DNA from: Streptosporangiales bacterium
Lineage (GTDB): Bacteria > Actinomycetota > Actinomycetes > Streptosporangiales > WHST01
Reading direction: 5' to 3'
Length of the DNA: 61,316 nt
Assembly (NCBI GenBank): GCA_009379955.1
Contig: WHST01000025.1
Location: forward strand, 1 to 61,316
Below are positions 9,664 to 34,009 of this stretch, piece by piece (the first letter of the stretch is position 1; every line of letters starts with the position of its first letter). The position numbers and the translations under genes were made by a program. The notes below the pieces were generated by a model. It saw nothing but the letters and a program-made list of their open reading frames with translations. It made no database searches and was not told the origin of the DNA.

Positions 9664-10434
9664 TCAGTGGGCGATCCAGCCGCCGTCGACACGCAGTGTC
9701 GTGCCCGTGACGTAGCGGGACGCGTCGCTCGCCAGGTAGACCACCGCGCCGCCGAGCTCCGCGGGGGTGCCGATCCTGCCCTGCGGGATCTCGCCCAGGA
9801 TCCGCTCGCCCCACCTGCTCGCCACGAGGCCGGACGACAGGTCGGTGTCGAAGTAGCCGGGCGCGAGCGCGTTGACGCGGACGCCGCGGTCGGCCCACTC
9901 GACGGCCAGCACGCGGGTGAGGGCCTCGAGCGCGCCCTTGCTCGCGGCGTACGCGGCGATCCTGGGGAACCCCGCTGTGCCGTGCACCGAGGTGATGTTG
10001 ACGATGCTGCCGCCGCCGGTGGGGAGCATCAGCCGCCCGGCGGCGCGGCAGCAGTAGAAGGCGCCGTCGAGGTTGACGTCGAGCACGTCGGACCACTCGT
10101 CGTCGGTGACCTGTTCGGTGCGCGTGAACGTCGGGCTGATGCCCGCGCAGTTGACGAGGACGTCGAGACGGCCGTACGCCTCGACCACGCGGTCGGCGGC
10201 GCCGTCGACGGTGGCCGCGTCGGCGACCGAGCCGGGGAGCGTGAGCACCTCGTGGTCGTCCGCGGCGAGCTCCTTCGCGAGCGACTCGAGGTCGGCGACC
10301 GTACGCGAGGTGACGGCGATCGTCGCACCGGCCGTGGCCAGGGCGGTCGCCATCGCACGGCCGAGACCCTTGCCGGCCCCGGTGACCCACGCGACCTTGC
10401 CGGTCAGGTCGAAGTCGCTCGGGATGCTCGTCAC
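9664..10434 (-). CDS. SDR-family oxidoreductase (a)
   Basis: This classical short-chain dehydrogenase of 256 aa uses NAD(P)H for alcohol/ketone interconversion. It shows TGAGKGLG for cofactor binding, NCAG, the catalytic Ser in NITSVHG, the YAASK active-site motif and the C-terminal VTGTTLRVDGG found in FabG-like enzymes. I chose GTG 10434 with an AGGAGG site. The frame stays open upstream through the 109-bp repeat, but that repeat evolves without coding constraint and should not be counted as protein. This is the last gene of the minus-strand catabolic operon; the repeat separates it from the acyl-CoA synthetase gene. Confidence 0.85.
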   Translation of the reverse strand: MTSIPSDFDLTGKVAWVTGAGKGLGRAMATALATAGATIAVTSRTVADLESLAKELAADDHEVLTLPGSVADAATVDGAADRVVEAYGRLDVLVNCAGISPTFTRTEQVTDDEWSDVLDVNLDGAFYCCRAAGRLMLPTGGGSIVNITSVHGTAGFPRIAAYAASKGALEALTRVLAVEWADRGVRVNALAPGYFDTDLSSGLVASRWGERILGEIPQGRIGTPAELGGAVVYLASDASRYVTGTTLRVDGGWIAH

Positions 10435-10481
10435 GGCTGGCCGACCTCCTCGGCGTCGGCGTCCACCGTACGGTACGCCCG

Positions 10482-10590
10482 CGCGCCCGCTTCGTCGCTC
10501 GCCTCCGGCAGGTGCCGCGGGGACCGGCGCCGTGCTGCTCTCGGCGTCGCGGCCCCTACCTGCGGCTCGTTCCTCAGCTCCTGCGCTCAC
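10482..10590 (-). repeat. 109-bp intergenic repeat element, copy 1
   Basis: The 109 bases at 10482-10590 match 18419-18527 at 106 positions, in the same orientation. The element overlaps the last 17 bases of the acyl-CoA synthetase gene, including its stop codon, and ends 47 bases before the next minus-strand start. A large imperfect stem-loop spans 10508-10563, with GCAGGT/ACCTGC at its base and GGGG/CCCC above. A minus-strand frame is open through both copies, but all three base differences change the amino acid, so a nucleic-acid function or a mobile-repeat origin is more likely than a peptide. Confidence 0.85.
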
Positions 10591-12103
10591 GTGTCCGCAG
10601 CTCCCGCTTGAGCACCTTGCCGGTCGGCGTGCGCGGAAGCTTCTCCACGAACGTGAACGCGGCCGGCGCCTTGAACCTCGCCAGCCGCGCCGTGCAGAAC
10701 TCGCGGAGCACGGCGGCGTCGGCGAGCGCTCCGTCGCGCAGTACCACGAACGCCTGCGGCACCTCGCCCCACCGCGCGTGCGGCATGCCGACGACGGCGG
10801 CCTCGACGACGTCGTCGTGCTCGTAAAGCACGCGCTCGACCTCGGGGGTGGCGATGTTCTCGCCGCCGGAGACGATCATGTCCTTCTTGCGGTCCTCGAC
10901 GTAGAGGTAGCCGTCGTCGTCAAGCCGACCGACGTCGCCGGTGTGGAACCAGCCGCCGCGCAACGCCGCGGCCGTGGCGGCCTCGTCGCGCCAGTAGCCG
11001 GAGAACACCTTCGGCCCGCGCAGCGTGATCTCGCCGAGCTGTCCCGGCGGCAGCTCGTGGCCGTCGTCGTCGACCACGCGCACCTCCAGGTGGATGACGG
11101 GACGGCCCACCGATCCCACCTTCGAGAGCACGTGCTCCGGATCGTTGAACGTGTCACCGGAGACGGTCTCGGTGAGGCCGTACGCGTCGGAGAACCAGGC
11201 GTTCGGGAAGGCGCGGATGATCCGTTCGACGAGGGGCTCAGGCATCTTCTCGCCGCCGCCGATGACGAACCTGATCGACGAGGTGTCGAAGTCCGCGAGG
11301 TCGGGCACGTGCAGGATCGCGTTCATCATCGCCGGCGCCAGCCAGACGTTCGTGGGACGTTCCGCCGTGATCAGCTCCAGCGCACCGCGCGCCTCGAACT
11401 TGCGCTGGATCACGAGCGTGCCGCCGGCCTGCAGGGTGGCGATGCCCGGCAGGTCGAGCCCGCCGACGTGGTACAGCGGGCCGCAGACGAGGGTGACGTC
11501 GGTGGAGGTGATGCCGAACTCCACGAGGTGGCCGAAGTTCTTCCACAGCACGTTGCCGTGGCTGACGCAGACACCCTTGGGACGCGATGTCGTGCCCGAG
11601 GTGTACATCAGCCGCTGCAGGTCGTGCTCGCCGACCGGCTCGGCGGGGACGAACGCGTCGGGGTGCGCGGCGACGACGCCCTCGTACGCCGTCCAGCCGG
11701 ACGGCGCGTCCTCGCCCAGCAGGATCCTGTGCCGCAGCGCGGGAAGTGCGGGCGTGACGAGGTCGATGTCGGACCGGAATGCGTCCTCGGTGACGATCGC
11801 GACCGCCCGGCCGTGGTCGAGGATGTACTGCCACTCCGGCGGCGCGAGCCGGTAGTTGAGCGGGAGGAACGCGGCGCCGAGCCGGTTCACCGCGAACACC
11901 GTCTCGAGGAACTCGATGTGGTTGTACGCCAAGATCGCGACGACGTCCCCGCGTCCGACACCTCTCTCGCGCAGGGCTGCGGCGAGTGAGCAGACCCGCG
12001 CGTGCAGCTCGCGGTTGGTGACGAGCCGGCCGTCCTGGCGCAGCGCGATCGCGTCCGGGTAGCGGCCGAGGTTGTGGTCGAGCATCGTCGCGAGGTTGTA
12101 CAC
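10574..12103 (-). CDS. AMP-dependent acyl-CoA synthetase/ligase
   Basis: The 509-aa ANL-superfamily enzyme activates a carboxylic acid with ATP and joins it to CoA. Motifs are all present: the P-loop-like YTSGTTSRPKG, the A5 motif DAYGLTET, GWFHTGDVG and DRKKDMIVSGGENI, and the catalytic Lys in PRTPTGKVLKRELR. Length is typical of fatty or aromatic acid CoA ligases; substrate is not predictable. I chose GTG 12103, preceded by GGGGGA, 13 bases after the upstream stop; an ATG at 12145 would overlap the upstream gene by 29 bases. The final codons lie in the 109-bp repeat. It is part of the HyuAB-SDR operon. Confidence 0.85.
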   Translation of the reverse strand: MYNLATMLDHNLGRYPDAIALRQDGRLVTNRELHARVCSLAAALRERGVGRGDVVAILAYNHIEFLETVFAVNRLGAAFLPLNYRLAPPEWQYILDHGRAVAIVTEDAFRSDIDLVTPALPALRHRILLGEDAPSGWTAYEGVVAAHPDAFVPAEPVGEHDLQRLMYTSGTTSRPKGVCVSHGNVLWKNFGHLVEFGITSTDVTLVCGPLYHVGGLDLPGIATLQAGGTLVIQRKFEARGALELITAERPTNVWLAPAMMNAILHVPDLADFDTSSIRFVIGGGEKMPEPLVERIIRAFPNAWFSDAYGLTETVSGDTFNDPEHVLSKVGSVGRPVIHLEVRVVDDDGHELPPGQLGEITLRGPKVFSGYWRDEAATAAALRGGWFHTGDVGRLDDDGYLYVEDRKKDMIVSGGENIATPEVERVLYEHDDVVEAAVVGMPHARWGEVPQAFVVLRDGALADAAVLREFCTARLARFKAPAAFTFVEKLPRTPTGKVLKRELRTRERRS

Positions 12104-12116
12104 GGCGTCCCCCGGA

Positions 12117-12938
12117 TCAGTGCGTGCCGTCGGATGTCCTGGCATGGAAGCTGTGCAGCGCGTCCCCGCCGCGACCGAGGTGGATGGCGCTCGTCATGCC
12201 GCCGTCGACGACCAGGTCGGTGCCCGTCACGTAGTCGGCCGCCGGACTCGCGAGGTAGGCGACGGCGGCGGCGATGTCGTCGGGCTCGCCGATCCGGCCC
12301 CACGGGGTCGCGGCGACGGTGGCCGACCTGATCTCCTCGGTGGCAAGGGTGTCGCGGTTGAGTCCGGTGTGGACGACGCCCGGGCTGACCGAGTTGATCC
12401 TGATGCGCTGCGGCGCGAGTTCGGCGGCGAGCTGCCTGGTGATCGCCAGGACACCGCCCTTGGCCGCGGTGTACGAGGGGAAGCCGTACCCGACGTGACC
12501 GGCGATCGACGCCACCTGCACGATCGCGCCGCCGCCGGCAGCCGCCATGGCGGGGACGACCCGCTTCAGCAGGACGAAGTAGCCGGTGAGGTTGACGTCG
12601 ACGACCCGGCGCCACTCGTCGAGTGTCGTCTCGAGCAACGCCTTGCGGACGACGATGCCCGCGGCGTTGACCAGCACCCGGGGCGGTCCGATCCGGTCGG
12701 TCGCCTCGGCCACCGCCCGTGTCACCTGGGCCTCGTCGGTGACGTCGGCGGTCAGATCGAGGGCCGTGCCGCCGGCCTCCTCGATCGCGCCGCGGGTCTT
12801 CGCCGCGGACGCGCCGTCAGCGTCGAGCAGCGTCACCGCCGCTCCGGCGCCGGCCAGACGCAGCGCGCACGCGCGCCCGATGCCGGAACCTGCTCCCGTC
12901 ACCACCGCACAGCGTCCGGTGAACTCGTTCGAAGGCAT
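12117..12938 (-). CDS. SDR-family oxidoreductase (b)
   Basis: The 273-aa short-chain dehydrogenase has TGAGSGIG, NAAG, catalytic Ser in QVASIAG, YTAAK (Tyr and Lys of the active site) and VTGTDLVVDGG. A C-terminal tail rich in His/Gly/Arg extends beyond the usual end by roughly 20 residues. The ATG at 12938 follows a GGGGTG-type site; a GTG at 12947 overlapping the previous stop as GTGA is an alternative. It lies five bases after the preceding SDR gene. Having three different SDRs in one operon suggests successive oxidations of hydroxyl groups on one substrate or its stereoisomers. Confidence 0.84.
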   Translation of the reverse strand: MPSNEFTGRCAVVTGAGSGIGRACALRLAGAGAAVTLLDADGASAAKTRGAIEEAGGTALDLTADVTDEAQVTRAVAEATDRIGPPRVLVNAAGIVVRKALLETTLDEWRRVVDVNLTGYFVLLKRVVPAMAAAGGGAIVQVASIAGHVGYGFPSYTAAKGGVLAITRQLAAELAPQRIRINSVSPGVVHTGLNRDTLATEEIRSATVAATPWGRIGEPDDIAAAVAYLASPAADYVTGTDLVVDGGMTSAIHLGRGGDALHSFHARTSDGTH

Positions 12939-12943
12939 CGTTG

Positions 12944-13705
12944 TCACCCCATGAAGTAGCCGCCGTTGACGTCGATCACTGTTCCTGTCATGTAGCTCGC
13001 CGCGGGCGAGGCGAGGAACGCCGCCACCCCGGCGATCTCCTGCGGCGTGGCCAGCCGGCCGAGCGGGCAGTAGTCGGGCTCGTAGCCGCGGCCGGTGATC
13101 ATGTCGGTGTCGACGGCGCCAGGCGCGATCCCGTTGGCGGTGACGCCGGCCGCGGCCTGCGTCCTGGCCAGCCACCTGACGACGGCGTGGACACCGCCCT
13201 TGCTCGCCGCGTAGTGCGGGCCGGCCAGCACGCCGCCGATCTTGCCGGCGACCGAGCCGATGCACACCACCCGGCCGCCGTCGCCGGCGCGCAGCAGCGG
13301 CAGCGCCGCCTGCACGCACCACAGCGTGCCGGCGAGGTTGACCGAGAGCACCGTGTCCAGCTCTGCCTCGGTGAGCTCGTCGAGCGTCGGCGAGTCGCCG
13401 TAGACGCCGGCGGCCGTGACGAGGATGTCGAGGTCCGCGTCGTCTCCGCCCGCTCCGGCGACGGCTGCCGTGACGGCGGCGCGGTCGGTGACGTCGACCC
13501 GCCCGCCGGTCGCCGACCCGCCCTCGGCCGTGACCAGCTCGACCGTGTCCGTGGTGTCGAGCACGTCGAGGACCGTCACGGTCGCACCGGCGCGCGCGAG
13601 CTCGACCGCGACGTGGCGGCCGATGCCACGTGCGCTGCCGGTGACGACCGCGCGGTCGCCGCGCAGCGAGCCGGGTCCCTCGGGGTGCAGGACTCCAGGC
13701 GTCAC
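12944..13705 (-). CDS. SDR-family oxidoreductase (c)
   Basis: The 253-aa short-chain dehydrogenase has TGSARGIG, the catalytic Ser in CIGSVAG, YAASK with Tyr and Lys, and MTGTVIDVNGG. The GTG start at 13705 overlaps the stop of the carboxymuconolactone decarboxylase-like gene as GTGA, a sign of translational coupling. The cofactor-binding segment is less conserved after TGSARGIG (TVLDVLDTTDTV), suggesting NAD rather than NADP preference by the acidic residue after the second strand. The substrate is unknown. Confidence 0.84.
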   Translation of the reverse strand: MTPGVLHPEGPGSLRGDRAVVTGSARGIGRHVAVELARAGATVTVLDVLDTTDTVELVTAEGGSATGGRVDVTDRAAVTAAVAGAGGDDADLDILVTAAGVYGDSPTLDELTEAELDTVLSVNLAGTLWCVQAALPLLRAGDGGRVVCIGSVAGKIGGVLAGPHYAASKGGVHAVVRWLARTQAAAGVTANGIAPGAVDTDMITGRGYEPDYCPLGRLATPQEIAGVAAFLASPAASYMTGTVIDVNGGYFMG

Positions 13706-14100
13706 GACGTCTCGTCCGCCTTCTCGCGGGCGGCGAGCTCCTCCATGAGGACAGGGACGCCGAGGGTGCAGCTGTGGATGCCGAGCACGCTGGTCAGCTC
13801 GAGCACCTCCATGACCTCCTCCTTCGTCGCCCCGTACTTCAGCGCGTTGCGGATGTGCACCCGCAACCCCGGCTCGTACAGATGCGTCGTGGAAGCGTCG
13901 ATGGCGGTGTAGATCAGTTCCTTGACCTTCGGCTCGAGCACGCCCGTGCGCCACGGCACCGCCGAGAAGTTCAGGTACGACTCGAAGAAGTCGGGGTCGA
14001 GCTGCAGCAGGCCGTCCCAGATGTGGCTCCAGTAACCACGTTCCTCGATGAACTTCTCTCTCAGCTCGCGCTGCCTGTCGGTGAGCTGCGCTTCGGCCAT
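13702..14100 (-). CDS. carboxymuconolactone decarboxylase family protein
   Basis: The 132-aa all-helical protein resembles the CMD/AhpD family. The typical segment is present (ALKYGATKEEVMEVLELTSVLG), followed by HSCTLG with a single Cys. AhpD-type proteins need a CxxC pair, which is absent, so a peroxidase role is unlikely. True 4-carboxymuconolactone decarboxylases act in the beta-ketoadipate pathway, but no other pathway enzyme is nearby. It sits between the HyuB-like gene and the SDRs, so it may act on a lactone or keto intermediate of the same route. The ATG at 14100 follows GGAGG. Confidence 0.75.
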   Translation of the reverse strand: MAEAQLTDRQRELREKFIEERGYWSHIWDGLLQLDPDFFESYLNFSAVPWRTGVLEPKVKELIYTAIDASTTHLYEPGLRVHIRNALKYGATKEEVMEVLELTSVLGIHSCTLGVPVLMEELAAREKADETS

Positions 14101-14117
14101 GACGGTCCTCCGTTCGC

Positions 14118-16070
14118 TCAGGCGCCCGTACGGTCGGCTCGGCGGGCGGCAGTCGCCTCATGGTCGACGACGAGGCCCTCGGGGTCCGTCGCCGGATCGC
14201 CCTGGATCACCACGCCGTACTGACGGTACGCGCCCTCGATGCTGACGTACTCGTCCCTGACGTCGTCGCGTACGCGCTCCGGGTCGCGGGTGAACGGGTC
14301 GCCCCAGCCGCCGCCACCGTTGGTGACGTAGCGGAACACCGCGCCCGGCCTGGTCTGCCAGACCGACGTGGAGGCGAAGTAGAAGTACTCGCCGTTCTCC
14401 GGGTCGACCGCGTTGGTCTGCGGGTCGAGGACGCCGGCGATGGGGACGGCCGATCGGTAGACATCGCGGTCGAGTCCGATCAGGTCCCGCCGCTCGGTGA
14501 CGTCGAACGCGTCCTTCTCGAAGAACCACACCGCGCCGTTCGCGCCGTCCCCGCCGCCGTACACGCCGACCCCGCTGCTGCGCTTGGTGTGCAGGGGGCT
14601 CGACCAGTGCTCGGCGTCGCGCAGGTACATGGTGTCCTTCAGGACGGCGGCCCCGCCGCGGTTGGCGCCCGCACCGGCGGTGTCGATGGCGTACTCCTTC
14701 CGCAGCACCACGCCGGGCACGTCGGACTCGACCGCCTCCGTCGCGGGGTCGAGGTTGTTCGCCAGCGAGATCGCCGTGTAGCTGTCGCCGTCCGCGAGAC
14801 GTGTCGCGCCCCACGGCCCGTGCTCGCCGCCGCACTGCGCCGTGGTCACCCACGGTGTGCCGTCCTCCATGACGCCGTGGGCGTTGTGGATGCTGAGCGA
14901 GCCGTAGTCGCCGCCGATCGCGTTCGCGCCCAGCGCCTTCTCCAGCGCGCGGAAGATCGCGAGCAGGACGGGCATCGAGCTCTCCCAGTACAGGAAGACC
15001 GCGCCGTCGGGTGGTGTCGCGCTGATGAACGTGCCCGGCGGGATGACGACGTCGATCGGCCGGTACGAGCCCGACGTGAACCGCGTCTTCGGATCGATGA
15101 GGAACTTCAGCGCGACGCCGACGGCGGTCTTGGTGTCGAGGATCCCGCAGTTGATGCTCGTCCGCGCCTGCGGCGAGGTGCCGCTGAAGTCGACCTCGAT
15201 GTTGCCGCCGGCCTTGCGCAGCGACAGTTTCAACCGGTACTCGACGCTGTCGTCGATGCCGTCACAGTCGATGCCCTCCTCGGCCTCGTAGACGCCGTCG
15301 GGGAGCTGCTCGATGGCGTCCTGCATCGACTCGGCCGAGACGTCGCAGCTGTACCTGATCGCGCCGAGGAACGCGTCGATGCCGTACCTCTCGATGCTCT
15401 CCTTGATCAGCCGCTCACCGAGCAGGAGGTTCTGGTAGATCGTCTTGATGTCGGGCAGCAGCAGCGCCGCCATCCGCGCGTTGTCGAAGATGAGGTTGAA
15501 CGACGACTGGATGGGCTTGTCGTCGCGGTAGAGCAGCATCGGCGCGATGACGAGACCGTTCTCGTACACGTTGCGCTTGGTGGCACTGAAGCCCGCGGGC
15601 ACGATGCCGCCCATGTCGAGCTGGTGCGCGCGCAGCGTCACGTAGGTCACCGGGCGGCCCTCGTGGAAGACCGGGCGGATGAAGCAGATGTCGTTGACGT
15701 GGTTGCCGGTGCGATACGGGTCGTTGGCGATGATCACGTCGCCCTCGCGTACCTCGTCGGGCCCGTACTCCTCGACGGTGTTGCGCACGGCTTCGGCCAT
15801 CGTGCCGAGGAACAGCACGAGGCTGTTGCTGACCGCGCCCATCGGGTAGTTGTGCTCCCGCGGTCCCGTGATCGTGGCGGCGAAGTCGTACCAGTCGCGC
15901 AGGATCATGGAGAACGCGTTGTTGAGCAGGTCGGTGCACATGTGCTGGACGATGTAGCGCATCCGGCTCGACAGCACCGAGGCGGTGAAGCGGTCGGCGC
16001 CGTACGCGTCGGTGAACTGGTCGTCGGTCATCTCCTTGAGCTGGAGGCGCCCGTCGTCGGTGTTAGTCAT
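14118..16070 (-). CDS. hydantoinase B/acetone carboxylase alpha-like subunit
   Basis: This 650-aa HyuB-family protein pairs with HyuA proteins in 5-oxoprolinase, N-methylhydantoinase, acetone carboxylase and acetophenone carboxylase. Characteristic segments are AFSMILRDWYDF, NDPYRTGNHVNDI (family signature), GGIVPAGFSAT, the glycine-rich GGEHGPWG and a late GGGGWGDP. Its length is nearer HyuB and acetophenone carboxylase than the 770-aa acetone carboxylase alpha subunit. The ATG at 16070 is the first plausible start; longer frames are antisense. It lies 29 bases after the HyuA-like stop. Which reaction is catalysed (C-N bond hydrolysis or ketone carboxylation) cannot be settled from sequence. 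Confidence 0.8.
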   Translation of the reverse strand: MTNTDDGRLQLKEMTDDQFTDAYGADRFTASVLSSRMRYIVQHMCTDLLNNAFSMILRDWYDFAATITGPREHNYPMGAVSNSLVLFLGTMAEAVRNTVEEYGPDEVREGDVIIANDPYRTGNHVNDICFIRPVFHEGRPVTYVTLRAHQLDMGGIVPAGFSATKRNVYENGLVIAPMLLYRDDKPIQSSFNLIFDNARMAALLLPDIKTIYQNLLLGERLIKESIERYGIDAFLGAIRYSCDVSAESMQDAIEQLPDGVYEAEEGIDCDGIDDSVEYRLKLSLRKAGGNIEVDFSGTSPQARTSINCGILDTKTAVGVALKFLIDPKTRFTSGSYRPIDVVIPPGTFISATPPDGAVFLYWESSMPVLLAIFRALEKALGANAIGGDYGSLSIHNAHGVMEDGTPWVTTAQCGGEHGPWGATRLADGDSYTAISLANNLDPATEAVESDVPGVVLRKEYAIDTAGAGANRGGAAVLKDTMYLRDAEHWSSPLHTKRSSGVGVYGGGDGANGAVWFFEKDAFDVTERRDLIGLDRDVYRSAVPIAGVLDPQTNAVDPENGEYFYFASTSVWQTRPGAVFRYVTNGGGGWGDPFTRDPERVRDDVRDEYVSIEGAYRQYGVVIQGDPATDPEGLVVDHEATAARRADRTGA

Positions 16071-16099
16071 CGTCGTCGATGCCCTTCGTCCTCGGGTCG

Positions 16100-18124
16100 T
16101 CAGATCCTGGTGATGCGCAGCTCGCCGTACGTGCCCACGCGTGCGCGCTGACCCGCCAGCAGGAAGGTGGTCGACAGGGGTTCCCTGATGATCGCGGGCC
16201 CCTCGATCTCGTCGCCACGGCGAAGGTCGTCGCGCTGGTACTCCCGGGCCTCGATCGTTCCGTCGCCGAGGTGGCGGAGCTGGAGGGTGCGGGTAGGCGT
16301 CGGCGCACCGCCGTCGCGCTCGGGCACCGTCGGGTACTCGACCTTGTCGGCCGTCACGACCGCGTCGACCCGGTAGGTGACGCCCTGGACCGGCAGCATC
16401 TCGAACCTGTTGCCCGAGCGCTTCTCGTACGCGTCGTGGAAGTTGGCGGTCATCGTGCTCACCGCGTCGGCGTCGATCTCGCCGTCGGGCACGCCGATGA
16501 ACGGCGTCTCCCAGGTCTGGCCGGCGAGGCGTCCATCGAAGCTGCGGACGAAGGTGACCTCCTCGTCGCCGCCGGCGAGGCGCTGGCGCAACTGCTCCTC
16601 CATCTGCCGGTAGACCTTGTCGATCGACGTCGCCGCCTCGGGCGTGAGCATCGTGTACGCGCTCCTGCTGTCGGCGTACACGAGGTCGGAGCTGACCAGG
16701 CCGAGCGCGGAGAACAGGCCGGGGTGCGGCGGGACGATGACCTCCTTGGCATGCACGAGGTCGAGCGCCGCGGGCAGCAGCATCGGCCCGGCGGCGCCGT
16801 AGGCGACGAGGCTGTAGTCGCGGGGGTCGATGCCGTGCATGATCGCGATGTTGACGACGCCCTCGGCGATGTTGTTCAGGCCGATCCTGAAGGCGTAGCT
16901 CACCCGTTCCTCGTACGTGAGCGGGCTGTCGAGGCCCTCGAACGCGGTGCGGGAGAGCTCGGCGTCGAGCTTCATCCGGCCGCCCGCGAACCCGTCCGCG
17001 TCGATGACGCCCATCAGCAGGCAGGCGTCGGTGAGCGTCGGCTCGGTGCCGCCGAGCCCGTAGCACGCGGGTCCCGGGTCGGCGCCCGCGCTGCCGGGAC
17101 CGACCTGGAGCTCGCCGGTCGGGGTGATCGTCACGAGACTGCCGCCGCCGGCGCCGATGCTGTCGACCTCGTTGGACAGCGCGTTGACGACGAGGTCGTG
17201 CTCGAGCTCGAACGTCGTGTTCACGAACGGCTCACCACCGGTCACCAGGCTCATGTCGCACGACGTGCCGCCGACGTCGGCGCACAGCAGGTTGCCGACG
17301 CCGAGCAGGCTGCCGAAGTGCGCGCTCGCCACCGTGCCCGCCGCGGGACCGGCGAACACGACCTTGAACGGGTACTGCATCGCGACGTCGGCCCGCACCA
17401 GATGGGCCGCGCAGTCGGCGAAGTTGAGGTCGCCGTCGAAGCCGAGCCCACGCAGCCCCTCGTCGAGCCGCGTGGTGTAGTCGTCGTAGATCAGCTTCAT
17501 GAACACGTCGACCACGGTCGTCGACGCGCGGGCGTACTCCTTGGCGAGCGGGGAGACCTCGCTGGAGATGGAGACCGGGACGTCGCCGAGCTCCTCGCGG
17601 ACGAGCTGGCGCAGCCGCTCCTCGTGGTGCCGGTTGAGATACGCGTTGATCAGGCAGATCGCGACGCCCTCGACATCGCACCGGCGCAGCACCGCGAGCT
17701 GCTCGCGGGCCTGGTCCTCGTCCAGCGGGATCAGCACCCCGCCGTCGGCGGTGAGGCGCTCCCTGATGCCACGGCGCAGGTAGCGGCGGACGAGCGGCCG
17801 GGCAGCGTCGCCGAACGGGCGTCGCCAGTTCGGGTCGGTCAGTGCCTCGAGTGGGCGCCAGGTGCGCCCGATGTCGAGGATGTCGCGGTGGCCGAGCGTG
17901 GTGAGGAAGGCGACCTTCGGCAGTCGCCTGGTGATGATCGCGTTGAGGCCGTGGGTGCTCGCGTGGTTGAAGACCGCGGAGTCGGCGACGCCGATCTCCT
18001 CGGCCCCGCGCAGCACGCCGCGCTCGGTCTCGCGGACGTCCGTGGCGACCTTCACCGTCGTGATCTTCCCGCCGGAGACCGAGACCACGTCAGTGAACGT
18101 CCCGCCTACGTCTACTCCGATCAT
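16100..18124 (-). CDS. hydantoinase A/acetone carboxylase beta-like ATPase subunit
   Basis: This 674-aa HyuA-family protein is the ATP-using partner of the HyuB-like subunit. It begins with the actin-like nucleotide-binding signature MIGVDVGGTFTDVV, and a second phosphate-binding loop follows (CADVGGTSCDMSL) with GAGGGS further on. In relatives, ATP phosphorylates the carbonyl substrate or bicarbonate. The ATG at 18124 follows AAAGGAC; the open upstream extension lacks similarity. It lies 20 bases downstream of an 88-aa orphan gene placed where carboxylase complexes often encode a small subunit. The ketone-rich context (SDRs, acyl-CoA ligase) favours a ketone carboxylase, but this is inference. 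Confidence 0.82.
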   Translation of the reverse strand: MIGVDVGGTFTDVVSVSGGKITTVKVATDVRETERGVLRGAEEIGVADSAVFNHASTHGLNAIITRRLPKVAFLTTLGHRDILDIGRTWRPLEALTDPNWRRPFGDAARPLVRRYLRRGIRERLTADGGVLIPLDEDQAREQLAVLRRCDVEGVAICLINAYLNRHHEERLRQLVREELGDVPVSISSEVSPLAKEYARASTTVVDVFMKLIYDDYTTRLDEGLRGLGFDGDLNFADCAAHLVRADVAMQYPFKVVFAGPAAGTVASAHFGSLLGVGNLLCADVGGTSCDMSLVTGGEPFVNTTFELEHDLVVNALSNEVDSIGAGGGSLVTITPTGELQVGPGSAGADPGPACYGLGGTEPTLTDACLLMGVIDADGFAGGRMKLDAELSRTAFEGLDSPLTYEERVSYAFRIGLNNIAEGVVNIAIMHGIDPRDYSLVAYGAAGPMLLPAALDLVHAKEVIVPPHPGLFSALGLVSSDLVYADSRSAYTMLTPEAATSIDKVYRQMEEQLRQRLAGGDEEVTFVRSFDGRLAGQTWETPFIGVPDGEIDADAVSTMTANFHDAYEKRSGNRFEMLPVQGVTYRVDAVVTADKVEYPTVPERDGGAPTPTRTLQLRHLGDGTIEAREYQRDDLRRGDEIEGPAIIREPLSTTFLLAGQRARVGTYGELRITRI

Positions 18125-18144
18125 GGACCTGTCCTTTCTGGGAG

Positions 18145-18411
18145 TCAGTCGACGGAGAGTCCGTCGGAGAGGAGGGTGATGGGACCGAGGAGGTGCCATG
18201 GCTCGCGACTGACCGAGCGCAGCGTCTGCTGGTGCTTGACGACCATGAACCAGCCGCCCTCGGTCAGCACCGGGTAGCGACGGAAGTCCGCCGCCGTGGA
18301 TCCGGGAAAGTCGCGGCTCAGGTCGACGCCGAGCTCCCGCAACTCCGCTTCCGTCACTTCTTCGCGCTCGACCGAGGGGCCTCGCACCACGGTTCCCGTG
18401 TCGTCGCTCAT
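18145..18411 (-). CDS. 88-aa uncharacterised protein, first gene of the HyuAB operon
   Basis: I do not recognise this small acidic protein. It has no signal peptide or membrane helix. The N-terminal third is Glu/Asp-rich; the second half is more ordered (RRYPVLTEGGWFMVVKHQQT, then SVSREPWHLLG). It lacks the four Cys of the zinc-binding acetone carboxylase gamma subunit. Position directly ahead of hyuA suggests a small accessory subunit, as in acetophenone carboxylase. The second copy of the 109-bp repeat ends only 7 bases before the ATG, so this gene's leader has been remodelled and no strong ribosome site is visible. Confidence 0.65.
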   Translation of the reverse strand: MSDDTGTVVRGPSVEREEVTEAELRELGVDLSRDFPGSTAADFRRYPVLTEGGWFMVVKHQQTLRSVSREPWHLLGPITLLSDGLSVD

Positions 18412-18418
18412 CGGCCCA

Positions 18419-18527
18419 CGCGCCCGCTTCGTCGCTCGCCTCCGGCAGGTGCCGCGGGGACCGTCGCCGCGCTGCTCTCGGCGTCGCGGCCCCTACCTGC
18501 GGCTCGTTTCTCAGCTCCTGCGCTCAC
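18419..18527 (-). repeat. 109-bp intergenic repeat element, copy 2
   Basis: This is the second copy of the element at 10482-10590, with three substitutions in 109 bases. It lies immediately upstream of the 88-aa orphan gene in the same orientation as copy 1 relative to the downstream gene. The stem-loop spans 18445-18500. It separates the operon from the divergent promoter region that holds the TetR-type operator. Confidence 0.85.
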
Positions 18528-18650: not shown

Positions 18651-19448
18651 ATGGGCACTCGGGTGCAACTCGTGGTGAACGGCGGCGTGCGTACCGTCCG
18701 GCTCGACCATCCGCCGCTCAACACGTTCGACACCGCCATGCGGCGGGAGCTGGCCGCTACGGCGGTCTCGCTCGCCGACGACGCGGACGTCCGCGCAGTG
18801 GTGCTCTACGGCGGCGAGCGGACGTTCGCCGCCGGCGCGGACATCCGTGAGCTCGCCGCGATGGGCTACGAGGAGATGTACGGCTGGAACCGCGCGATCC
18901 AGCGCGCCATCGGTGCGTTCGCCGACCTGCCGGTGCCCGTCGTCGCGGCCGTCACGGGCCACGCTCTCGGCGGCGGGATGGAGCTCGCGCTCACCGCCGA
19001 TTACCGCGTGGCGGCGGACGACGCGGTGCTCGGGCAGCCCGAGGTGCGGCTCGGCATCATGCCAGGATCCGGTGGCACGCAACGGCTGACCAGGCTCGTG
19101 GGTCCCGCGCGGGCCAAGCAGATCCTGATGACCGGTCGCCGCATCCCGGCCGCCGAGGCACTGCGGCTCGGCCTGGTCGACGAGGTGGTGCCGTCCGCCG
19201 AGGTGTACGCGGCCGCCCTCGCGTACGCCTCGCGGCTCGCGGTGGGCCCGCGGTTCGCGCTGCAGGCGATCAAGGAGGCCGTCGACCGTGGCGGTGACGG
19301 CCCGCTGGAGACGGGGCTGGCGCTCGAGCGCGCGTCGATCGCCGGTCTCTTCGCCACCGCGGACATGCGCACGGGCGTGGCGTCGTTCCTCTCGGACGGT
19401 CCCGGACGTGCCCGCTTCGGCGCACCGAAGGATCGGGGTTCCATGTAA
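18651..19448 (+). CDS. enoyl-CoA hydratase/isomerase family protein
   Basis: The 265-aa crotonase-fold enzyme likely hydrates a 2-enoyl-CoA or isomerises an acyl-CoA in a beta-oxidation-type route. It shows the oxyanion-hole segments FAAGADIREL and GHALGGGMELAL, and the region containing the usual catalytic Glu residues (GQPEVRLGIMPGSGGTQRL), which keeps both E positions typical of true hydratases. The ATG at 18651 follows GGAAGG. It is first in a two-gene transcript with the TetR regulator and is preceded by TetR-like operator site 1. Acyl-CoA synthetase and acyl-CoA dehydrogenase genes nearby complete the set for side-chain beta-oxidation. Confidence 0.86.
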   Translation: MGTRVQLVVNGGVRTVRLDHPPLNTFDTAMRRELAATAVSLADDADVRAVVLYGGERTFAAGADIRELAAMGYEEMYGWNRAIQRAIGAFADLPVPVVAAVTGHALGGGMELALTADYRVAADDAVLGQPEVRLGIMPGSGGTQRLTRLVGPARAKQILMTGRRIPAAEALRLGLVDEVVPSAEVYAAALAYASRLAVGPRFALQAIKEAVDRGGDGPLETGLALERASIAGLFATADMRTGVASFLSDGPGRARFGAPKDRGSM

Positions 19449-32214: not shown

Positions 32215-33360
32215 ATGCGTAGACGCGCACCCCTCGTCCTGGCGGCCGCGCTGGCCGCCGCGCTCTCGCTCGTGCTGTCGGGCAGTGCGTCCGCGGCGCC
32301 GGCGGAGCCCGTCGTCGTGGCGAGTGGCCTCGACAACCCGCGCCAGCTCGCGTGGGGGTCGAACGGCGCTCTGCTCGTCGCCGAGGCGGGTCGCGGCAAG
32401 GTGAACCCGGGGCCCAACGGGTGCTTCACCGGCCCGGAGGGCGAGACGTGTCTCGGCGTCACCGGCAGCATCTCGCGGATCGCCGACCCCGCGCGGACGG
32501 TCGACGGCGACGCACGGCGCGTCGTGACCGGGCTCATCTCCGGTGCCTCCCGCGAGGGCGGCTCGGCGGTGGGGTCGAACGGCGTCTCGTTCCAGAACGG
32601 CAAGATCCTCGTCGCGATGACGTGGGCTCCGCCGGACGTCCTGCCCAGGACCGGGGTGCCGAAGTGGCAGCTCGGCAAGCTGATCCGGGCGACGCCGTGG
32701 CCGAGCCACGCAAAGAAGTCGATCGCCGACCTCGCGGCCATCGAGGTCACCCAGAACCCGGACGGCACCGACGTCAACGCCAACCCGTACGCGGTGCTCG
32801 CCCTCGATGACCACAGGTCGGTCGTCGCCGACGCGGGCGGCAACCATCTCGTCCTCGTCGACCGTGGCAAGGCGAGGGTGCTCACGGTCATGCCGGCGCA
32901 CGGCTGCGGTGGAGTCGTGACGCCCGAGTGCGACATGCACTCGGTGCCGACGTCGCTGGCCAAGGGACCAGGCCACGCGCTGTACGTCGGCGAGCTCGCG
33001 CACTTCGAGCCCGGTGGGGCGCGGGTCGTCAAGGTCTCGCCGACCACGGGCAAGGTCCTCGGCTTCTACGGCAAGGGTGGCACGCTCTGCGCCAAGGACA
33101 CCGCGGGCTTCAGTGGCATCAGCGGGATCGCGTTCGGTCCGGACGGGAGCCTCTACGTGAGCGAGCTGTTCGGCGGTGCGACCGGCGGCCAGGTCGTCAG
33201 GATCTCGCCGACGTGCCAGCGCACCGCGGTGCCCGTGCCGATGCCGGCCGGGCTGTTGACGGACAGCAAGGGCAGCGTGTTCGTCTCGGCGTTCAGCATC
33301 TCCGACCGCGACGGCGCCGACGGCGCCCCGCCGGGACAGATCTGGAAGCTGCGCTTCTAG
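32215..33360 (+). CDS. secreted ScyD/ScyE-family protein
   Basis: The 381-aa exported protein has a signal peptide (RRRAPLVLAAALAAALSLVL, cleavage after SASAA) and then a beta-propeller-like body. The pattern VVVASGLDNPRQLAWGSNG, then SISRIAD and an ending in PGQIWKLRF is typical of the ScyD/ScyE family, first noted in cyanobacterial scytonemin clusters and common in actinobacteria with unknown role. Six cysteines may form extracellular disulfides. Two GGAGG-like sites precede the ATG. Confidence 0.75.
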   Translation: MRRRAPLVLAAALAAALSLVLSGSASAAPAEPVVVASGLDNPRQLAWGSNGALLVAEAGRGKVNPGPNGCFTGPEGETCLGVTGSISRIADPARTVDGDARRVVTGLISGASREGGSAVGSNGVSFQNGKILVAMTWAPPDVLPRTGVPKWQLGKLIRATPWPSHAKKSIADLAAIEVTQNPDGTDVNANPYAVLALDDHRSVVADAGGNHLVLVDRGKARVLTVMPAHGCGGVVTPECDMHSVPTSLAKGPGHALYVGELAHFEPGGARVVKVSPTTGKVLGFYGKGGTLCAKDTAGFSGISGIAFGPDGSLYVSELFGGATGGQVVRISPTCQRTAVPVPMPAGLLTDSKGSVFVSAFSISDRDGADGAPPGQIWKLRF

Positions 33361-33381
33361 CGGTCCAGCGGTCTAGCGGGA

Positions 33382-33435
33382 CCCGTGAGGGGCACCCCCA
33401 CCGGGTGGGAGCACGGTGGGGGTGCCCCTCACGGG
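33382..33435. terminator. 22-bp perfect hairpin, GTGAGGGGCACC family
   Basis: Arms 33382-33403 and 33414-33435 pair perfectly around a 10-base loop and match those of the hairpin at 20172-20225. It sits between the convergent ScyD-like and DHFR-like genes, 22 and 14 bases from their stops, and likely terminates both. Confidence 0.78.
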
Positions 33436-33448
33436 GTCGACCGTGGGA

Positions 33449-34009
33449 TCAGTCCGCGGCGGGGCGGTAGACGAGGTGGAGGACGCCGCTGCCGAACGTC
33501 GTGGAGGAGGCGAGCGTCAGCGGCAGGCGCGGGGTGCCCGCCTCGAACAGGTGCGCGCCGGAGCCGACCACGATCGGGTGCACCAGGAGGTCCAGCTCAT
33601 CGAGGAGACCCTCGCTCAGCAGCCAGCGCACCAGGGTGGCACTGCCCGACAGGGCGATGTTCTTCCCTTGCCCGGCCTTGAGCTCGCGGAGACGGTCGCC
33701 CGCCTCCGCGCGGCGGAGGAGGGTTGTGTTGGCCCAGTCGGCGCTCTCGAGGGTGTCGGACACCACGTACTTGGTGGCGCCGTTCATCGTGGCGGCGATC
33801 TCGTCGTCGCTGTTGGGCCAGTACTCGGCCCATTCGCGATAGTTGGTGGCGCCCATGAGCATGGCATCGCTGCGCGCGAAGCCTTCACCCACGGCCGCGC
33901 CCATCTCGTCGTCGAAGTAGGGGAAGTGCCACTTGTCCGGTGCCTCGACGACCCCGTCGAGGCTGATGAAGAAGTTGGCGACGATACGGCGGGACGGCGG
34001 TGTGGTCAT
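33449..34009 (-). CDS. dihydrofolate reductase-fold (RibD C-terminal-like) reductase
   Basis: The 186-aa protein matches the DHFR-like RibD_C family (COG0262), which uses NADPH on unknown pteridine- or riboflavin-like substrates. Features are the N-terminal FFISLDGVVEAPDKW, MLMGATNYREW, NIALSGSATLVRWLLSEGLLDEL and HPIVVGSGAHLFE. It is not a housekeeping folA. The ATG at 34009 follows GAGGAG. A second family member lies at 49269. Confidence 0.82.
   Translation of the reverse strand: MTTPPSRRIVANFFISLDGVVEAPDKWHFPYFDDEMGAAVGEGFARSDAMLMGATNYREWAEYWPNSDDEIAATMNGATKYVVSDTLESADWANTTLLRRAEAGDRLRELKAGQGKNIALSGSATLVRWLLSEGLLDELDLLVHPIVVGSGAHLFEAGTPRLPLTLASSTTFGSGVLHLVYRPAAD

Follow-up and report, generated by a model that had tools for sequence, protein, structure and literature searches.

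A candidate MIRU-like mobile element with a covarying hairpin at stop/start overlaps in Streptosporangiales operons

Two copies of a 109-bp element in the window

The window analysed here is a stretch of 61,316 nucleotides from a Streptosporangiales bacterium. It contains two copies of a 109-bp element, whose sense strand is in both cases the minus strand of the window (Table 1). The copies have the same orientation and are identical at 106 of 109 positions (97%), in agreement with the preliminary description of this DNA. Copy 1 lies between an acyl-CoA synthetase gene, which ends within the element as had been reported, and a gene for a short-chain dehydrogenase (SDR). Its mini-ORF continues in frame into the SDR gene, leaving no free mini-ORF, and the native start of the SDR is likely to be the GTG at 10434; the suspicion that proteins would be artificially extended through the element was therefore well founded. 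There is no clear target duplication at copy 1.

Copy 2 is located at the head of an operon and not between two genes. The order here is GGGAGG, 5 nt, GTGA, 39 codons and a stop within the ATGA of a gene for an 88-residue protein, which has no match in Pfam. The TGA of the mini-ORF overlaps the ATG of this gene (ATGA, 18411–18408), and the distance from DTGA to DTGA (where D is A, G or T) is 116. Because copy 2 heads its operon, ribosomes presumably enter the mini-ORF from the old ribosome site.

Each window copy is the nearest relative of the other, while no other copy exceeds 87% identity to copy 1; the pair therefore probably arose when one member of a larger family was recently copied. A weak covariance-model match at 33356–33458 (+) (18.7 bits, E 0.038) is perhaps a decayed copy or a chance match.

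Table 1. Features at and around the two copies of the element (positions in the window)
Feature	Position	Strand	Remarks
Element copy 1	10482..10590	-	109 bp; 5' end GTGA (10590-10587); covariance model R1 100.7 bits, E 6e-21
Central stem 5' arm, copy 1	10548..10560	-	GGTAGGGGCCGCG
Central stem 3' arm, copy 1	10507..10519	-	CGCGGCACCTGCC
AMP-binding acyl-CoA synthetase, upstream of copy 1	10574..12145	-	last codons and stop (10576-10574) inside element
SDR ORF, downstream of copy 1	9664..10590	-	52-codon extension through element
Element copy 2	18419..18527	-	109 bp; covariance model R1 100.1 bits, E 9e-21
Mini-ORF of copy 2	18408..18527	-	GTG (18527), 39 codons, TGA (18410-18408)
Central stem 5' arm, copy 2	18485..18497	-	covariation
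Central stem 3' arm, copy 2	18444..18456	-	covariation
88-aa protein gene, downstream of copy 2	18145..18411	-	starts ATGA; precedes hydantoinase A and B genes
ORF with Hydantoinase_A domains, next in copy 2 operon	16100..18199	-	
Enoyl-CoA hydratase/isomerase, divergent neighbour of copy 2	18651..19448	+	

Copy number, anatomy and hairpin of the family

The genome (G000) contains 41 copies as found by BLAST and at least 66 as found with a covariance model trained on 31 copies (27 from G000 and four from a second genome of the genus, G001). The family is thus far larger than the two copies that would have suggested a local duplication. The covariance model found 25 copies in G001 and one in G002, an incomplete genome of the same genus. 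With stricter filters for the large genome sets, no copy was found outside the genus in three partly overlapping sets, drawn from the class (295 other genomes), the order (342) and the phylum (395); the core pattern had no match in a collection of genomes from named species, and the element had none in phages or Rfam. As far as seen, the family appears to be restricted to the genus. A partial match on a Rhodococcus plasmid (64% of the query, E 6e-3) is weak and was taken as chance. Tandem copies at L081, L090, L122 and L119 have a period of 117–119, reminiscent of MIRU-VNTR arrays. At one orthologous junction (L067, L155 and L156), a copy is present in both G001 and G000 and absent in G002, arising from either a shared or a repeated insertion.

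On the sense strand, the 5' part of the element reads DTGA, GCGMAGGAGC...CGAGCC..GGTAGGGGYCGCG; this is followed by a variable centre, by the 3' part ..CGCGRCRCCTGCCGGAGG..GAGGARGCGGKCGCG, and then, after 1–11 nt, by the DTGA of the downstream gene. The 3' end, GAGGAGG, is positioned approximately 9–10 nt ahead of the start codon and may serve as its Shine-Dalgarno site.

The stem-loop described previously is present in both window copies. Here the decisive evidence is covariation and not the folding of a single sequence, which is no better than that of shuffled sequences (z -0.84) and is uninformative for DNA this rich in GC. In an alignment of 90 distinct matches, 97.8% of cells in the consensus stem are paired, and double changes occur in 14 of the 22 stem pairs, with 148 double-changed cells compared to 37 after shuffling and no more than 17 in slid controls. 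This alignment was fitted to the model; a free alignment of 31 copies gives equal covariation. The termini are inverted repeats, paired as GCGC/GCGC with covariation, and form an outer stem (A3 columns 5–8 with 130–133) in which 98% of cells are paired. Since the outer pairs also covary (CG 54/AU 31; CG 41/UA 36; CG 63/GC 19), it is the whole element, and not its centre alone, that is predicted to fold back on itself as an imperfect hairpin. We note that UGAC lies opposite GGAA in A2 columns 16–19 and 103–106, giving tandem G-A/A-G mismatches between covarying pairs, a possible sheared-GA motif of the outer stem.

Insertion sites, target duplications and reading frame

With gene direction called by three-base GC periodicity, the element is sense to the downstream gene in 83 of 86 copies, and in 58 of 86 there is an upstream gene on the same strand with its stop at -16 to +2 of the element start. 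The 5' DTGA is absent in 14 of the 86. The downstream genes have unrelated functions. The insertion sites are DTGA sequences, in which the stop TGA of the upstream gene overlaps the start DTG of the downstream gene. Orthologous junctions of the same genus that lack the element are themselves DTGA overlaps at about ten pairs, the stops being checked by reading frames (L063/L163, L065/L173, L123/L169, L075/L177, L112/L162, L071/L138, L091/L126, L091/L125, L107/L137, L021/L134 and L021/L139). Some orthologous junctions are not -4 overlaps, for example L066/L129 and L089/L147.

The target duplications that had been suggested as a check are present in the family. They begin at DTGA and vary in length from 7 to 14 bp. 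Where the element starts at least 7 nt past the DTGA, the bases following the 5' and 3' DTGA match at 64 of 88 positions, compared to 31 for shuffled partners (p<5e-5). Clear examples are L105, which has ATGAGCAAGG twice, L056 (GATGACCGGCCGC twice), L097 (CGTGAAGACG twice) and L309 (ATGAGCACAA twice). Copies that follow directly after the DTGA show a weak left-hand duplication (p 0.009).

The start of the mini-ORF lies in the 5' DTGA; its stop coincides with the TGA in the DTGA of the downstream gene in 44 of the 51 copies with both DTGA ends defined. The spacing between its stop and the gene start is thus -4 in 44 copies, -1 in two and -8 in two, which are the three overlap spacings enriched among bacterial gene pairs (PMC12548453). 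The DTGA-to-DTGA length is 2 mod 3 in 47 of 51 copies (binomial p 2e-18, which is overstated because the copies share ancestry), with lengths of 104, 107, 110, 113, 116, 119, 122 and 125, and only 115 and 120 outside this series. When each length is counted once, allowing for relatedness, all eight possible 2 mod 3 lengths are found, compared to two of the 14 others (Fisher p 1.4e-4). In another 12 copies the element is joined to the downstream gene in frame, so that the path of the ribosome is likewise kept. The element is used in two frames, both free of stops. For bodies in the commoner frame, the 5' DTGA is mostly offset by 2, 5, 8, 11 or 14, and for those in the other by 4, 7 or 10. In L056, the frame switches within the hypervariable centre and the total length stays 2 mod 3.

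The preliminary description had regarded the three differences between the window copies as evidence against a coding role, since all would change an amino acid in the shared frame. They are indeed non-synonymous; however, the peptide is free to vary while the frame from DTGA to DTGA is strongly maintained, and the element is therefore most likely translated as a mini-ORF. We considered and rejected a conserved peptide product, because the family uses two different frames (MSAGADERAAGRGRD... and ...RRSSTS.EVGAA...) and has a hypervariable centre. Selection thus seems to act on the route of the ribosome and not on its product.

Pattern searches also identified elements in which both ends are kept and the middle is lost, as well as lone 3' ends at DTGA. 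The short form L167 (G000:C7:40312) is flanked on both sides by TGACGAGCAC, and further short forms are L315, L303 and L309, the last of approximately 25 bases. Of ten short forms with a defined upstream stop, seven have the -4 spacing, with lengths of 29, 29, 32, 32, 38, 50 and 62. The very short relatives (L309, L315, L303, L167, L299, L302, L305 and L314) have the same ends, measure 29–62 bp between duplicated DTGA sites and are nearly all 2 mod 3. There are 48 matches to the 3' end in G000, of which about nine are expected by chance on the basis of a reversed control, making single 3'-end cases without a duplication uncertain. In the draft genomes G000 and G001, the sequence ahead of orphan 3' ends, examined over as much as 4 kb, contained no longer partner with matching ends, and no transposase partner or parent transposon was found around them. 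The DTGA-to-DTGA lengths thus range from 29 to 125 bp and are nearly all 2 mod 3, which suggests, from sequence evidence only, that coupling through the insert is under selection.

Proposed mode of insertion and comparison with known systems

We propose that this is, in all likelihood, a miniature mobile element which integrates where translation starts, chiefly at DTGA stop/start overlaps in operons, and preserves coupling by means of its mini-ORF. Insertion would duplicate the DTGA together with about 3–10 following bases, leaving intact the stop of the upstream gene as well as the start and N-terminus of the downstream gene. Ribosomes that had finished the upstream gene, or had loaded at the old Shine-Dalgarno site, would resume translation at the 5' DTGA and cross the element by way of a disposable mini-ORF of approximately 40 codons; they would terminate at the TGA within the 3' DTGA and start again on the downstream gene. 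In this way the insertion would be tolerated. We infer the translation of the mini-ORF, the re-initiation at the DTGAs and a role of the hairpin in mobilisation.

The most substantial alternative, which we nevertheless consider unlikely, is that the element is an ordinary MITE: a deletion derivative of an IS moved by a transposase acting on the terminal inverted repeats, with its location at gene starts a by-product of selection. This overlaps with our proposal as regards movement, and differs from it on whether DTGA is targeted. The covarying paired termini, the internal-deletion forms that keep both ends, and the target duplications all fit a MITE; DDE transposases, however, usually have a fixed stagger, while here the duplication is 7–14 nt with its left edge at DTGA, and orphan 3' ends show no longer partner within the 4 kb or less examined upstream. 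It is improbable that the element is a cis-regulatory RNA module (a riboregulator or attenuator) spread among operons and kept for control of the downstream gene. A covarying sense-strand hairpin conserved right before start codons would be expected of such a module, but the unrelated functions of the downstream genes, the lack of the element at orthologous junctions, the tandem and truncated copies and the absence of an Rfam match all argue against it, and it leaves the frame bias unexplained.

REPs are found outside genes, usually past stops and in either orientation. An element of the REP/BIME type, moved by a RAYT-like enzyme, would account for the many copies of a small palindromic repeat, but hardly for a repeat of about 110 bp that carries an ORF and lies in sense orientation at start codons, and we regard it as very improbable. 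A segmental duplication limited to the window has next to no probability: the window copies are the closest pair, but at least 64 further copies on other contigs refute it as an account of the element.

Returning to the proposed insertion at stop/start overlaps, a more speculative extension, which on balance we doubt, is that translation-transparent elements form a general class recognising the stop/start junction, possibly via an RNA copy, with the hairpin recognised by the mobilising machinery; mycobacterial interspersed repetitive units (MIRUs) would be one branch and the present element another. The RNA copy is suggested by a 3' edge fixed at DTGA, a variable duplication length and apparent 5' truncation of some copies, as in target-primed insertion. 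With dozens of natural operons carrying the insert, coupling by re-initiation becomes testable. We also note, as a warning, that elements of this kind will cause gene callers to predict proteins that are extended through them.

The earlier suggestion of a MITE/REP-like element or mobile regulatory cassette holds in that the element is dispersed, mobile and hairpin-bearing, although its behaviour is nearer to that of MIRUs than to REP/BIME or a classical MITE. It shares with REP/BIME its small size, palindromic nature and numerous copies, and differs in its position at start codons, fixed orientation and ORF. Its non-autonomous size, paired ends, target duplication and internal-deletion forms are those of a MITE; in contrast to the fixed-length duplication of MITEs, its duplication varies in length and is anchored at DTGA, it has a mini-ORF under apparent frame selection, and no parent IS was found in the draft genomes.

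According to PMC4473831, MIRUs show no dyad symmetry and carry small ORFs that overlap their neighbours; units of 53 and 77 bp are reported (PMC4213456), and a passage in PMC12548453, citing Supply et al. (1997), has them inserting at start codons with -4 coupling. A search of named genomes with a MIRU core known from the literature found 108 stretches, nearly all in Mycobacterium, including M. leprae, with a tandem spacing of mostly 53. The DTGAs bounding mycobacterial MIRUs are 53 apart in 45 of 72 cases, and 48 of the 72 distances are 2 mod 3. At the MIRU loci L190–L269, an outer stem of 4 bp that flanks the 53-bp unit shows compensatory changes (GCGC/GCGC, ACGC/GCGT, GCAC/GTGC, GTGC/GCAC and GCGG/CCGC), with 294 of 340 cells paired compared to a shuffled mean of 279.5 and maximum of 289, relatedness not being removed. 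MIRUs may therefore have a weak closing stem, and their description as lacking dyad symmetry may fail for MIRUs themselves.

There is no clear sequence kinship between the two: covariance model R1 did not match any of 18 MIRU loci, and alignment to MIRU is marginal at best (p 0.013 uncorrected for a short form, 0.2–0.3 at full length). The present element also differs in its 109-bp body with a long covarying hairpin, its longer target duplications, its internal-deletion forms and its host genus. Its 66 copies of about 109 bp are slightly longer than the 40–100 bp given for MIRUs as interspersed repeats. In other respects the likeness is close: it is interspersed on the strand of its neighbours, has a small ORF in the same direction that overlaps both of them with mostly -4 spacing, forms tandem pairs (L081, L090 and L122), has a length of 2 mod 3 as do the 53-bp units, and inserts at DTGA coupling sites, as seen from the empty orthologous junctions. 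Our best call is therefore a new MIRU-like, coupling-preserving mobile element with a covarying hairpin, which would mean that the MIRU way of life, with insertion at stop/start overlaps and the flow of ribosomes kept, exists beyond mycobacteria in a different body.
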